Assembly: GCA_016214845.1 (NCBI GenBank)
Contig: JACRMS010000037.1
Coordinates: 124,001 to 188,000 of the forward strand
Source of the DNA: Nitrospirota bacterium
GTDB lineage: Bacteria; Nitrospirota; Thermodesulfovibrionia; UBA6902
Length of the DNA stretch: 64,000 bases
Reading direction: 5' to 3'
The notes beneath the pieces were generated by a model that had not been told where the DNA came from, searched no databases, and saw only the letters and a program-made list of their open reading frames with translations. How positions within the stretch are numbered: the stretch's first letter is position 1; each line of letters starts with the position of its first letter. Shown one piece after another: positions 8,677 to 44,269 of this stretch. The translations under genes were made by a program, and so were the position numbers.

Positions 8677-8809
8677 AACCACAGAGGACACAGGGAAAGA
8701 TGTTGAGAAGCTATGAAGTTGAGAAGTTGAGAAGATACGAAAACCAATAGCACTCCGGCCCATCTTCTCAAGTTCTCATCTTCTGTCGTCCTCCGTGTAC
8801 TCTGTGGTT
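8677..8809. repeat. Composite intergenic inverted repeat
   Basis: The outer arms read AACCACAGAGGACACAG and, inverted, AACCACAGAGTACACGGAGG. Inside lie GAGAAGTTGAGAAGAT and its approximate complement ATCTTCTCAAGTTCTC. Two separate repeat types thus appear nested. A similar GAGAAG/CTTCTC block occurs inside the P-type ATPase gene (24322-24410), and the CACAGAG motif recurs near 15825. Confidence 0.65.
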
Positions 8810-8822
8810 AATGCCGTTATAC

Positions 8823-12032: not shown

Positions 12033-12052
12033 GAAATTTAAGTAGGAAGTGG

Positions 12053-12104
12053 GAAGTAGGAAGTAAGAAGCAAAATAAAAAATTTACTTCTTACTTCCTA
12101 CTTC
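12053..12104. repeat. Hairpin repeat between dnaK and dnaJ
   Basis: Two perfect 18-base arms (GAAGTAGGAAGTAAGAAG and its complement) flank an A-rich loop. The left arm is preceded by another AAGTAGGAAGTGG unit. It is placed between two co-transcribed chaperone genes and could weaken or stabilise the transcript there. The type looks like a dispersed repeat rather than a classic terminator, since no T-run follows in the direction of transcription. Confidence 0.65.
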
Positions 12105-12111
12105 TTAGTTC

Positions 12112-19107: not shown

Positions 19108-20610
19108 TCATATTTTCCATTTTCGCAATTCAGTCTTTTTAATCTTTCCGGTAGCTGTTTTGGGAAATTCCTCAATAAAAATTATCCTCTTTGGTATCTT
19201 ATACCGCGCAAAGCGGCCCTTCAAATAACCTCTTATGTCACTCTCGTTAATGACTGTATTGTCTTTGTTTTTTATGAAAAGCACCGGTATCTCCGAGCCT
19301 CTGCCGTCTGGTATCCCAACCATCGCGCATTCCTCAACCGATGGGTGTTGAATTAGATGCTCTTCTACTTCCCTCGGATACATATTCATCCCGTCGATGA
19401 TGATAAGGTCCTTTTTTCTGTCGACAATATAGATATACCCGTCTGAATCAATCTTTGCCATGTCGCCGGTATAAAGCCAGCCGCTCTTTAAGACCTCTTC
19501 AGTTTCTTTTTCCTTGTTGTAATATCCCCGCATAACGTTAGCGCCTCTTACGATCAGCTCCCCGGTTTCTCCGGCCGGCAGGTTTTTGCCGTCTTCCCCG
19601 ACAACCGCAACTTCAACCCCCGGGACAGGCAGGCCCACGGAGGAAGGCTTCCGTACACCTCTCAGCGGGTTTACGGCCACCACAGGAGATGCCTCGGTAA
19701 GCCCGTATCCCTCGATCAACGGGATACTGAAGCGTTTCTCAAACGCATTGATCGTATCCGCGGGCAGCGCTGCCGCTCCTGATATGCACGCCCTGATATT
19801 AACGAGGAACTTAAAAAAGAACCTCAGAAAGAAAGGCATCTTCTTTCTGGAGAGAATATTGTATATCGTTGGGATCGCGACAAAGAGGGTTATCCTGTCT
19901 ATGAAAATACTGTTTATGACCTTTGAAAACGGCTTTACAGACACCAGCAGTATTATTTGGGCCCCGGCGAATATCGGCAATATAACGCAGACCGTGAAGC
20001 TGAATGAATGAAACAATGGGAGAAAGAGCAATATCCTGTCACTTCCTGAAACCTCCATTGCCTTCATGCACGACTCAGCATTTGTCAGGAGATTTCTGTG
20101 GCTGAGCATGGCCCCTTTGGGAAATCCCGTTGTGCCTGAGGTATATAAAAACACAGCGACTTCATTTTCATCCAAATCCGATCCACCCTTTACTAAAGGT
20201 GGGACGGGAGGGTTTACAGGTATCTCATCAAACATAAAAACCTTCAACCCGGGAATAGCATTATTAATTTTTTCTACATGAGACAAAAACCTGATATTGT
20301 AGATCAGAATCTTACAGGCGGAATCATTGAGAATATAGGATATTTCACCAGGGGTGAGAAATGTATTTAAAGGAACAACAACTCCGCCCGCCCTGAGGAT
20401 TGCAAAATATGAGATTATGTATTCAGGGCAGTTGTCCATTAAGATCGCAACCCGGTCCTGATGTTTTAATCCCAAGGTCCTTAACCCGCCGGAGGTGACG
20501 CTGACAAGCCTGTCTGTATCTGAGAAGGTGAATTTTTTCTTCTCAAACTTTAGACAAATTTTATCCGGAATTTCCCTTGCCCGTTTTGATAACAACGCGC
20601 TCAGTGTCAT
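19108..20610 (-). CDS. AMP-dependent acyl-CoA synthetase/ligase
   Basis: 500 aa ANL-superfamily enzyme that activates a carboxylic acid with ATP and couples it to CoA. Motifs: VFLYTSGTTGFPKGAMLSHRN (P-loop), EGYGLTEASPV, GWLYTGDMAKIDSDGYIYIVDRKKD and the C-terminal lysine in PKTATGKIKK. The length and pattern suit a medium- or long-chain fatty acid substrate, but this is not proven. The segment IPVNPPVPPLVKGGSDL before the P-loop is encoded by a dispersed repeat inserted in frame. Confidence 0.88.
   Translation of the reverse strand: MTLSALLSKRAREIPDKICLKFEKKKFTFSDTDRLVSVTSGGLRTLGLKHQDRVAILMDNCPEYIISYFAILRAGGVVVPLNTFLTPGEISYILNDSACKILIYNIRFLSHVEKINNAIPGLKVFMFDEIPVNPPVPPLVKGGSDLDENEVAVFLYTSGTTGFPKGAMLSHRNLLTNAESCMKAMEVSGSDRILLFLPLFHSFSFTVCVILPIFAGAQIILLVSVKPFSKVINSIFIDRITLFVAIPTIYNILSRKKMPFFLRFFFKFLVNIRACISGAAALPADTINAFEKRFSIPLIEGYGLTEASPVVAVNPLRGVRKPSSVGLPVPGVEVAVVGEDGKNLPAGETGELIVRGANVMRGYYNKEKETEEVLKSGWLYTGDMAKIDSDGYIYIVDRKKDLIIIDGMNMYPREVEEHLIQHPSVEECAMVGIPDGRGSEIPVLFIKNKDNTVINESDIRGYLKGRFARYKIPKRIIFIEEFPKTATGKIKKTELRKWKI
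20180..20222. repeat. In-frame dispersed repeat (PPVPPLVKGG type) in acyl-CoA ligase
   Basis: An imperfect inverted repeat, CCACCCTTTACTAAAGGTGGG with flanks, encodes PVPPLVKGG on the minus strand. A related sequence with longer C/G runs lies in the P-type ATPase gene at 24641-24685. It falls in a surface loop ahead of the SGTTG motif. Confidence 0.65.
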
Positions 20611-23258: not shown

Positions 23259-26072
23259 ATGAATATCCACAATCTCTCAAAAACAGAGGTGCTGAAAAAT
23301 CTCGTTACTTCAGAAAAGGGGCTCTCTGAAACTGAAGCGGCAAGGAGGATGCATGAATACGGGCTAAATGAGATAAAAGAAGTAAGAAAAAAAGCTCTCT
23401 ACCTAAGGTTCATTGCACAATTCACGCATTTCCTTGCCATGCTCCTCTGGCTTGCGGCGGGACTCTGTTTTTTATCCGAATACCTTCATCCGGGCGAGGG
23501 TCTTGTTTCACTCGGTATAGCAATAATTGTGGTTATATTGATCAATGCGGTTTTTACTTTTGTACAGGAGTACCGTGCAGAAAAGGCAATTGAAGCTCTG
23601 AAGAAGCTCTTGCCTTTTAACGTAAAAGTTGTAAGGGAGGGCATCAGAAAAGAGATCTGTGCTGAAAATATAACGCCGGGAGACCTGATACTCTTGAGTG
23701 AAGGGGACAAAGTCCCTGCTGACGCGCGGCTCATCGAATCAAATTATTTAATGGTAAACAACGCGCCTCTCACAGGAGAATCCGATACAAGGCCGCGAAG
23801 TCATGAAGCATTCGAAGGAGAGTATATTGAAAGCCCGAACATCGTCTTTGCAGGCACTCATGTTGTAAGCGGCTCAGGAAGGGCCGTTGCGTTTGCCACC
23901 GGCATGTCCACGGAATTCGGGAAGATAGCCCATCTTACAAGCGGTGTTCAGGAAAGATTAAGCCCGCTGCAGAAAGAGATAATAAAGGTAACAAAAATAA
24001 TAGCCGTTATTGCCCTGACCACGGGGATATTCTTTTTTGCCCTTGGAATTTTCATCGGCAGGAGCTTCTGGCACAATCTGCTTTTTGCCATAGGCATCAC
24101 TATCGCCAATGTGCCTGAAGGGCTTTTACCGACTGTTACTCTTTCTCTGGCAATGGGCAGCCAGAGGATGGCAAAGAAAAAGGCGTTGATAAAGACCCTC
24201 ACATCAGTTGAAACCCTCGGCTCTGTTACGGTGATATGCACCGACAAGACAGGCACGCTGACGCAGAATAAAATGGAGGTGGAGAGGGTTTATGCAGGCG
24301 GAAGACTTATAAAGTCAGAAAATGGGAAGATGAGAAGATGGGAAGATGAGAAAAAGACAGGATCTGAAAGCTTCTCAACTTCTCAACTTCCCAGCCCCTC
24401 AACTTCTGCATTAGACATGCTCATGCAAGCCGCATCCCTCTGCAACAACGCGGTTTACGATAACGGGAAATACAAAGGCGACCCCACAGAGGCAGCCATC
24501 TTAAAGGCCGCGAGAGAAGCGATAGGAGACGTGAAAGCTGAACGCATACATGAGATGCCCTTTGACTCTGATAGGAAGAGAATGACGACGGTTTGCAAGA
24601 CAGGGATTAGGGGTCAGGGATTAGGGATTAGTGGAAAAGACCATCCCCCCATCCCCCCCTTACCAAGGGGGGGCGAAGGGGGGTTGTTTTCTTTTACCAA
24701 AGGCGCTCTCGAAACGGTCCTTCCGTTTTGCACTGGAATTCTCAGGGACAATGAGATAAAAGCAATCAGCGAAGATGATAAAAAATCCCTCATGCAGGCC
24801 TACCATTCAATGATGGATGAAGGGTTTAGGGTAATCGCGTTTGCGTTTAAAGAGATTAACGATATTGATATTGGTAAGGGCGAACGGCCGTTCGCCCCTG
24901 CAGATTTGGAATCAAATTTAATTTTCCTCGGCCTCATGGGGCTTGAAGACCCGCCAAGGCCTGAAGTCCCTGACGCTATAAGAAAATGCCGCGATGCAGG
25001 TATCAAGGTCATCATGATCACGGGTGATGCGGGCAGGACGGCGGTTGCGGTTGCAAAACAGATCGGTCTTGTCAAAAATAATCCTTTAGTGATTGAAGGG
25101 CATGAAATAAATTTGATGTCTGACAGCGACCTCAGGGGAAAACTTTTATCAGATGAAATCATCTTTGCAAGAATGACGCCTGTTCACAAGATGAGGATAG
25201 TGACCATTCTTGAAGATGAAGGGGAGAGGGTCGCGGTGACGGGCGACGGGGTTAATGATGCGCCGGCACTGAGGAAGGCAAACATCGGCATTGCAATGGG
25301 ACTGTCCGGGACAGACGTTGCAAAAGAGGCGGCGGATGTAGTCCTTCTTGATGATGACTTTGCGACAATTGTAAACGCAGTGGAAGAAGGAAGGGCAATA
25401 TTTGAGAATATAAAAAAGTTTATCACCTACATCTTTGCGCACGGCACACCCGAGGCGGTCCCGTATGTGATGTTCGCATTTCTGAAAATACCTCTTCCCC
25501 TGACAGTGATGCAGATACTCGCGATTGACCTCGGCACTGAAACGGTCCCGGCGCTGGCCCTCGGGGTTGAGCCCCCGGAGGCAAATATTATGAAAAACCC
25601 TCCCAGGCCCCTTGATAAGGGACTTATAGACCGCTCGCTGCTTTTCCGCGGCTACATTTTTATCGGGCTGATAAGCGCGGTCGGCGTCCTTTGCGGTTAC
25701 TTCTACGTCCTGTTCAGCGGAGGATGGCAATGGGGCACTGAGTTACCAATGGAGCATACCCTGGCCCGTCAGGCAGCCACCGCAACTTTTTTGGGAATTG
25801 TCATCCTGCAGATCGGCAATGTGTTTGCCTGCCGCTCATTCAAAGACTCAATCTTCAGGCTCGGCTTCTTTTCCAACAAACTGGTCATACTTGGAATAGC
25901 CGCCGAGATAATTCTGTCGGCGCTCATTATTTATCACCCGTGGGGCAACAGGATCTTCGGGACCGCGCCCCTAAGAGCGGATGTATGGCTGCTCCTGATA
26001 CCGTTCAGCATAGGACTGCTTTTGGCAGAGGAATTGAGAAAATATTATGCAAGAAGATATAGTAACACCTAA
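23259..26072 (+). CDS. P2-type cation-transporting ATPase with repeat insertions
   Basis: 937 aa. Family motifs: TGES in the actuator domain (APLTGESDTRPRS), M4 ANVPEGLLPTVTLSLAMG, the phosphorylation site DKTGTLTQN with D329, MITGD and AVTGDGVNDAPAL. About ten membrane segments. M6 reads AIDLGTETVPALALGVEPPE, closer to the Na,K-ATPase type (IDLGTDMVPA) than to the Ca pump type, so Na or K transport is possible; not settled. The nucleotide domain carries several unrelated dispersed repeats in frame (residues about 355-384, 448-476 and 539-548). None hits a catalytic motif. Operon with the Usp and ferritin-like genes. Confidence 0.9.
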   Translation: MNIHNLSKTEVLKNLVTSEKGLSETEAARRMHEYGLNEIKEVRKKALYLRFIAQFTHFLAMLLWLAAGLCFLSEYLHPGEGLVSLGIAIIVVILINAVFTFVQEYRAEKAIEALKKLLPFNVKVVREGIRKEICAENITPGDLILLSEGDKVPADARLIESNYLMVNNAPLTGESDTRPRSHEAFEGEYIESPNIVFAGTHVVSGSGRAVAFATGMSTEFGKIAHLTSGVQERLSPLQKEIIKVTKIIAVIALTTGIFFFALGIFIGRSFWHNLLFAIGITIANVPEGLLPTVTLSLAMGSQRMAKKKALIKTLTSVETLGSVTVICTDKTGTLTQNKMEVERVYAGGRLIKSENGKMRRWEDEKKTGSESFSTSQLPSPSTSALDMLMQAASLCNNAVYDNGKYKGDPTEAAILKAAREAIGDVKAERIHEMPFDSDRKRMTTVCKTGIRGQGLGISGKDHPPIPPLPRGGEGGLFSFTKGALETVLPFCTGILRDNEIKAISEDDKKSLMQAYHSMMDEGFRVIAFAFKEINDIDIGKGERPFAPADLESNLIFLGLMGLEDPPRPEVPDAIRKCRDAGIKVIMITGDAGRTAVAVAKQIGLVKNNPLVIEGHEINLMSDSDLRGKLLSDEIIFARMTPVHKMRIVTILEDEGERVAVTGDGVNDAPALRKANIGIAMGLSGTDVAKEAADVVLLDDDFATIVNAVEEGRAIFENIKKFITYIFAHGTPEAVPYVMFAFLKIPLPLTVMQILAIDLGTETVPALALGVEPPEANIMKNPPRPLDKGLIDRSLLFRGYIFIGLISAVGVLCGYFYVLFSGGWQWGTELPMEHTLARQAATATFLGIVILQIGNVFACRSFKDSIFRLGFFSNKLVILGIAAEIILSALIIYHPWGNRIFGTAPLRADVWLLLIPFSIGLLLAEELRKYYARRYSNT
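24322..24410 (+). repeat. In-frame GATGAGAAG/CTTCTCAAC repeat in P-type ATPase
   Basis: GGAAGATGAGAAGATGGG units on the left and CTTCTCAACTTCTCAACTTC on the right form an imperfect inverted repeat. The intergenic element at 8677-8809 contains the same type. It is translated as a charged and Ser/Pro-rich insertion (MRRWEDEKKTGSESFSTS and onward) shortly after the phosphorylation domain. Confidence 0.7.
24602..24685 (+). repeat. Two adjoining dispersed repeats in frame in P-type ATPase
   Basis: 24602-24632 shares a 26-base identical core (TTAGGGGTCAGGGATTAGGG and following bases) with the intergenic hairpin at 33301-33364. 24641-24685 is a C-run/G-run hairpin (CCCCCTTACCAAGGGGG) encoding PPIPPLPRGGEGG, related to the repeat in the acyl-CoA ligase. 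Both keep the ATPase frame open. Confidence 0.75.
24875..24902 (+). repeat. GGCGAACGGCCGTTCGCC palindrome in frame in P-type ATPase
   Basis: A copy of the element at 862-895, encoding KGERPFAPA. It lies between FKEINDID and DLESNLIFLGLMGLEDPPRPE, a surface-exposed linker before the P domain resumes. Confidence 0.75.
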
Positions 26073-33284: not shown

Positions 33285-33300
33285 GATGGAGAATAAGGTG

Positions 33301-33364
33301 TTAGGGGTCAGGGATTAGGGATTAGTAAAAAACTAACCCCCAACCCCCGATCCCCAATCCCTAA
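33301..33364. repeat. Hairpin repeat between hyfC- and hyfE-like genes
   Basis: TTAGGGGTCAGGGATTAGGG and following bases form the left arm; GGGGATCGGGGGTTGGGGGTTAG is the complement of the right. The left arm is the same repeat found inside the P-type ATPase at 24602-24632. It splits an otherwise tightly packed operon. Confidence 0.75.
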
Positions 33365-44031: not shown

Positions 44032-44128
44032 AGAATGCTGGCCCTATGAGGGGACATGGCTGAAATAAAAGGTTGGGCTCTTAGCATAGGCAGGGAATAA
44101 CCTTTTAAAAATCAGGGGCCAGCATTCT
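44032..44128. repeat. Structured palindromic repeat, copy B
   Basis: 97 bases with perfect 13-base arms (AGAATGCTGGCCC). Core: GAGGGGACATGG, an AAAAGGTT/AACCTTTT inner stem and the loop GCATAGGCAGGGAAT. The core is almost identical to copy C while the arms differ in paired positions. Confidence 0.8.
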
Positions 44129-44145
44129 ATCCGTTATTTTCTTAA

Positions 44146-44269
44146 AGAGAGTATAAAGATAGGATGCTGACCTATGAGGGGACATGGTTGAAATAAAAGG
44201 TTGGGCTTTTTGCATAGGCAGGGAATAACCTTTTACATCTGAGGTCAGCATCCTATCTTTATACTCTCT
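44146..44269. repeat. Structured palindromic repeat, copy C
   Basis: 124 bases. Perfect 28-base arms: an AGAGAGTATAAAGAT extension joined to AGGATGCTGACCT. Core as in copy B. The extra 15 base pairs make this the longest stem in the window. It starts 17 bases after copy B. Confidence 0.8.

Follow-up and report, generated by a model that had tools for sequence, protein, structure and literature searches.

Several unrelated families of dispersed repeats very probably insert broadly in the genomes of this Nitrospirota lineage, survive in frame in tolerant protein loops and turn over there; in the gene studied, which encodes a putative type II P-type ATPase, the inserts are predicted to be translated and the pump to be apparently functional. 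The window, i.e., the whole 64-kb stretch of DNA that was analysed, is part of a 3.4-Mb genome comprising 41 contigs.

The ATPase gene and its insert slots

The gene, the three slots (S1–S3) and the repeats found in them are as follows:

23259–26072, + strand: type II P-type ATPase, 937 aa, intact open reading frame with inserts (ORF translation, family models, structure match)
24285–24416, + strand: slot S1, residues 343–386, between DKTGTLTQNKMEVE and MLMQAASLCNN; 44 aa here, 13–47 aa in relatives (alignment)
24317–24407, + strand: GATGAGAAG / CTTCTCAAC hairpin with 8-mer (GGGAAGAT-type) arrays in S1 (repeat search; low confidence at residues 363–381)
24594–24689, + strand: slot S2, residues 446–477, a β-hairpin tip that immediately precedes the ATP-binding motif KGA; 32 aa long (alignment, model)
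24602–24631, + strand: AGGGATT heptad array (TTAGGGGTCAGGG repeat; TTAGGGA-type) in S2 (repeat search)
24641–24689, + strand: C/G-rich element with hairpin CCCCCTTACCAAGGGGG (peptide PPIPPLPRGGEGG) in S2 (genome-wide copies)
24855–24908, + strand: slot S3, residues 533–550, between RVIAFAFKE and LESNL; 18 aa here (alignment)
24874–24902, + strand: GTAG-type (GYAG) palindrome GTAAGGGCGAACGGCCGTTCGCCCCTGCA in S3, translated KGERPFAPA (repeat search, genome-wide copies)

The first-pass annotation had placed four separate repeats, in frame, inside this one gene. All four sequences are present and the 937-residue frame is intact, with no stops; the sites number three, as the C/G-rich hairpin directly adjoins the TTAGGG array within a single slot. 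The location of the insertions between catalytic motifs was confirmed, the TGE, DKTGT, KGA, DPPR, TGD and TGDGVNDAPA motifs being invariant in the 21-sequence orthologue alignment, and the insertion edges, which were to be sought by alignment with homologues, could be defined against relatives. The KGERPFAPA peptide also occurs in MutS2 of the same genome.

By its motifs and by the general family model TIGR01494 (317.1 bits, cut-off 62.3), the predicted product is a type II P-type ATPase; its scores lie below the curated cut-offs of the models for the Na,K/H,K-ATPase alpha subunit (TIGR01106, 634.5 against 946.1 bits) and for the PMR1-type Ca-ATPase (TIGR01522, 625.8 against 798.3 bits). The predicted structure matches those of Na,K-ATPase with TMq up to 0.87 (8jbk), and the fold and all catalytic motifs are common to the type II pumps Na,K-ATPase, SERCA and SPCA; the animal pumps have loops of their own at the places of S1–S3, unrelated in sequence to the Nitrospirota inserts. 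The AlphaFold2 model has a mean pLDDT of 83.9, with values below 50 only at residues 363–381, 450–472 and 228–230; the first two stretches are the S1 and S2 inserts, and their low model confidence likely reflects disorder. In this model, S2 forms the tip of a β hairpin (strands 441–448 and 476–482) and S3 lies between strands 524–533 and 554–563. A comparison of the cores of the ATPase from the window's genome (G000) and of one orthologue (G006), over 834 core codons, gave dN 0.093 and dS 0.623, which shows the predicted protein core to be under purifying selection; these figures and the model both fit an active pump that carries additional, flexible loops.

Copies of the repeats in the window and in the genome

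Repeat searches located the following relatives of the inserts in the window (no strand assigned):

865–893: related palindrome copy
2776–2804: related palindrome copy, diverged
8698–8785: related GTTGAGAAG / CATCTTCTC hairpin, with CACAGAGGACACAGGG-type arms on both sides
33296–33364: related heptad hairpin TTAGGGGTCAGGGATTAGGGATTAGT...ACTAACCCCCAACCCCC, intergenic, with a gene on either side

Each repeat had been said to have a relative elsewhere in the window, which is the case for three of them. The AGTTGAGAAG-type repeat recurs at 8709–8781 (six matches including those in the ATPase gene, 0.05 expected), TTAGGGGTCAGGGATTAGGG has a match at 33301 (0.00 expected), and the S3 palindrome has a copy at 870 and another, with two mismatches, at 2781 (0.00 expected); genome-wide, the palindrome has five exact copies and 12 with at most two mismatches. 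For CCCCCTTACCAAGGGGG, the window contains no second close copy, the two matches representing both strands of one site (0.67 expected), and the nearest likeness is a weaker C/G-rich hairpin, CCACCTTTAGTAAAGGGTG, at 20184–20202. Despite this lone window site, the C/G-rich unit is a real dispersed repeat, with seven exact copies in the genome and 12 with at most one mismatch, against none for a control pattern. An Rfam search of the window gave no match.

The hairpin at 20184–20202 is in frame within an ORF resembling an AMP ligase (PVNPPVPPLVKGG) and adds one more decorated gene. Positions 8690–8815 form a nest of inverted repeats, in which CACAGAGGACACAGGG-type outer arms enclose the GTTGAGAAG/CATCTTCTC hairpin, and a heptad hairpin of the type found in the ATPase inserts, GAAGTGGGAAGTAGGAAG...CTTCCTACTTC, is present at 12046–12111.

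Turnover of the inserts among orthologues

The ATPase was compared with about 21 orthologues from related genomes (22 sequences counting that of the window). Nearly all length variation falls in S1, S2, S3 and a fourth slot present in a few species; majority-gap columns hold 372 residues within the slots and 52 elsewhere. Every slot in the 22 orthologues keeps the frame and contains no stop. The slot contents differ by species, with unrelated repeats occupying the same loops: the fillers include C/G-rich hairpins (peptides PPIPPLPRGGEGG and NPPLVKGG), GTAG palindromes (VGAIHESPLQ, VGARRAVPL), heptad hairpins (one giving a peptide that includes STSHFLLPTSY), a GTCATTGCGAGGAGCG element and others, and in several slots two families are combined (heptad with C/G-rich element, heptad with palindrome). 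Several relatives have no insert in S2. In one orthologue (G009, contig L007), S3 carries an in-frame GTCATTGCGAGGAGCGGCAGCGACGAAGCAATC...GATTGCTTCGCCCTCGGCTCGCAATGAC element, which represents yet another repeat family.

When 1.37 Mb of sampled contigs were searched, slot DNA matched repeats elsewhere in 39 of 61 cases (64%), and control segments, equal in length and drawn from the same genes, did so in 31 of 305 (10%; Fisher p = 3e-18); a number of slots had no match among the sampled repeats, and most of those slots' genomes lie outside the sample. The S3 palindrome agrees with another genomic copy at 28 of 28 bases.

Had the segments been shared by distant homologues, they could have been regarded as ancestral protein sequence. 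Among 80 homologues from a broad collection, mostly of other phyla, the segments are absent, and the S2 loop, 32 aa long in the ATPase of the window, measures 8 aa in most; a congener, deposited as Nitrospiraceae bacterium SURF_11, and one close relative from the Nitrospirota bear inserts of their own. The comparison rules out an ancestral origin and shows the segments of the predicted protein to be insertions.

The closest pair of orthologues (G019 and G032) is 92.5% identical in the core and only 24, 6 and 17% identical in S1, S2 and S3, respectively, and the alignment of their DNA gives near-exact insert edges. Overall, no target-site duplications were seen. Inserts can also persist, because other pairs share an insert by descent (G005 and G008, 97% identity in S2, 94% in S3). 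On a tree of the core, built with the slot columns left out, at least 15 changes of repeat family in S1, at least 14 in S2 and at least 11 in S3 were counted, with family labels assigned by eye and only three of the 20 branches fully supported. Recurrent filling and turnover of the slots in the predicted proteins are shown by these comparisons, and the composite slots suggest that a loop already occupied may safely receive a further insertion.

Reading-frame filter

Arrays of period 7 number 38, against none in Markov shuffles, and 27 of the 38 lie in ORFs, mostly as stop-free units and often as inverted pairs. Among arrays of period 7 or 14, those in ORFs have units that lack a stop on the coding strand in 29 of 32 cases; for arrays between genes, the figure is 10 of 46 strands (p = 1.5e-9). 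Such a bias is what selection on translated insertions would predict, and the filter acting on the presumed reading frames is shown by these counts.

Decorated genes beyond the ATPase

A sample of 622 kb (18% of the genome), in which ORFs were predicted by length only and a few may be spurious, contained 144 repeat intervals, of which 28 lay well within ORFs, 26 at the boundaries of ORFs and 90 between genes. The density amounts to five per 100 kb inside ORFs versus 121 between genes, so copies in genes are strongly depleted yet frequent. At least a dozen conserved enzymes in the sample are decorated, the hosts including GuaA (GMP synthase), DapF, CbiD, NAD(P)HX epimerase/dehydratase, TrpE, MqnC, ThiL, TilS and MutS2. 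GuaA has a single slot before VVWMSHG; among 20 relatives, most have a heptad or C/G-rich insert there that differs from one to the next, and some have 0–1 aa; CbiD has several such slots, re-used likewise in relatives.

The picture of one specially tolerant gene, drawn in the first-pass annotation, was correct as to the tolerance of the ATPase loops and proved too narrow in view of these enzymes and of the re-use of loops in GuaA and CbiD. Similarly, the nucleotide-binding (N) domain, described there as a tolerant landing zone, does have loops that are tolerant and repeatedly used; a second type II P-type ATPase of the same genome has ordinary loops, and the N domain as such is therefore not the attractor, nor is its role as a general landing zone supported.

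Among the sampled contigs, CbiD (L061:6601–7839) bears at least three in-frame repeats and GuaA (L056:11605–13209, minus strand) a heptad hairpin. In TrpE (L061:13025–14527), the same GTAG palindrome occurs twice in frame (VGAGFKPAL in both cases).

Palindrome class and search for a mobiliser

The S3 palindrome belongs to a set of hairpins that end in GTAG or GCAG, including GTAGGGGCGGGTTTNAAACCCGCCCCTAC. It possesses the features of GTAG-tagged REPs, namely a GTAG/GYAG tag, a short G/C-rich palindrome and many copies; as regards an unpaired tag at one end only, many copies are symmetric (GTAG...CTAC) and others have the form GCAG...TTAC. As judged from sequence features, the set fits the GTAG-tagged REPs, for which a degenerate GYAG tag has been described (Di Nocera et al. 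2013, PMC3733652). The lineage commonly carries Y1/RAYT transposase genes. Nineteen Y1_Tnp loci, from this genome and related ones, showed no GTAG hairpin, and mobilisation of the palindromes by a RAYT was rejected on this ground, a RAYT flanked by repeats being a hypothesised mobiliser that is not demanded of every REP family. For the heptad and C/G-rich elements, we know of no enzyme. One RAYT-like Y1 transposase (L113:1440–2160) is flanked by GGGACACATCCC / GGATGTGTCC-type repeats and not by GTAG palindromes.

Comparison with known repeat systems

In their mode of insertion, the repeats resemble the Rickettsia palindromic elements (RPEs), which are 105–146 bp long and occur in obligate intracellular bacteria (Ogata et al. 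2000, reviewed in PMC2229807): both are short, dispersed, open-frame repeats fused in frame within conserved genes, and the multi-copy, in-frame, stop-free insertion in conserved genes, with absence from homologues, was found here as well. The product of an RPE-bearing gene can remain active (PMC2229807). Unlike RPEs, the Nitrospirota inserts belong to several unrelated, mostly shorter families that share slots and are refilled between close species.

GTAG-tagged REPs are mostly intergenic, with some in frame inside ORFs, and in recB different REPs occupy about the same site in two Xanthomonas species (PMC3733652). The S3 palindrome and its relatives are similar in having G(T/C)AG ends, G/C-rich stems and a mostly intergenic, partly in-frame distribution; they differ in that no RAYT gene was found beside a copy here and many intergenic copies are symmetric, and in that the recurrence extends over several genes and about 20 species. 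The heptameric repeats of Nostoc and Xanthomonas, which are likewise tandem heptads at dispersed sites and include GGGGATT-type units, lie mainly between genes (68% in Nostoc; PMC4692102), whereas most of the period-7 arrays counted here lie in ORFs. No description of the repeat peptides or of the phenomenon in Nitrospirota was found in the open-licence literature; what is new here is how many families are involved, their occurrence outside Rickettsia and the repeated filling of given loops, whose contents turn over between closely related species.

Proposed mechanism and alternative explanations

In the preferred reading, unrelated families (GTAG-type palindromes, C/G-rich hairpins and heptad/octad arrays, often inverted pairs) would spread through genomes of the lineage by some form of transposition or copying. 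Insertion would be broad, and selection would purge most intragenic copies; those that survive would keep the frame, have no stops on the coding strand and occupy loops where extra residues spare the fold. Three loops of the ATPase N domain would qualify, and in nearly every species they may independently have gained inserts, lost them by erosion and been filled again, an occupied loop perhaps being an even safer target. The inserts, presumably nearly neutral, would appear in the translated protein as flexible loops, and the pump would apparently still function. A variant in which an active process rewrites the same loops, swapping dispersed repeats by copying or by targeted insertion into repeats, with heptad arrays maybe arising from an undescribed templated synthesis, is considered rather unlikely; if it were true, conserved enzymes would bear fast-changing, species-specific loop cassettes.

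An adaptive role, with the inserts tuning nucleotide affinity, regulation or partner binding of the pump, or acting as RNA hairpins that pause ribosomes or mark messages, would be in keeping with the position of S2 beside the KGA motif, with the hairpins formed by most inserts and with the altered substrate affinity of a Rickettsia guanylate kinase bearing an RPE insert (PMC2229807). It appears quite improbable, since insert sequence, length and family are unconserved between close species, several relatives are missing the S2 insert and the same repeats decorate enzymes of unrelated function. The loops could alternatively be fast-evolving, low-complexity protein shaped by slippage and drift, with an incidental resemblance to repeats: slippage can lengthen heptad and octad arrays, and slot length varies in many P-type ATPases. 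This explanation is highly improbable and already largely refuted by the slot DNA, which matches multi-copy repeats six times more often than same-gene controls do, by the perfect palindrome match and by the unrelated families that fill the same slot even in the pair with the 92.5% identical core. Hop elements are likewise mobile and located inside conserved genes, and the inserts might by analogy be spliced out or bypassed in translation and never reach the protein; the kept frame, the absence of stops in all slots of the orthologues and the stop-free coding strands of the ORF arrays count against this, since elements removed in such a way would need neither, and removal is almost certainly not the explanation.

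Under the preferred reading, the lineage offers a natural loop-insertion scan, with unrelated peptides placed repeatedly at the same points of core enzymes, and the conserved remainder of the decorated enzymes suggests that they may still work. Protein-coding selfish repeats would not be limited to obligate intracellular bacteria, and several families could be involved at once; the neutrality of the inserts and the movement of the heptad and C/G-rich elements become testable. In annotation, these peptides should be read as insertions and not as domains.

Elsewhere in the window, at 44043–44269, two 74-bp copies, 91% identical, lie beside a perfect 28-bp inverted repeat, AGAGAGTATAAAGATAGGATGCTGACCT, 68 nt apart; these repeats look like a small mobile element or a remnant of one.
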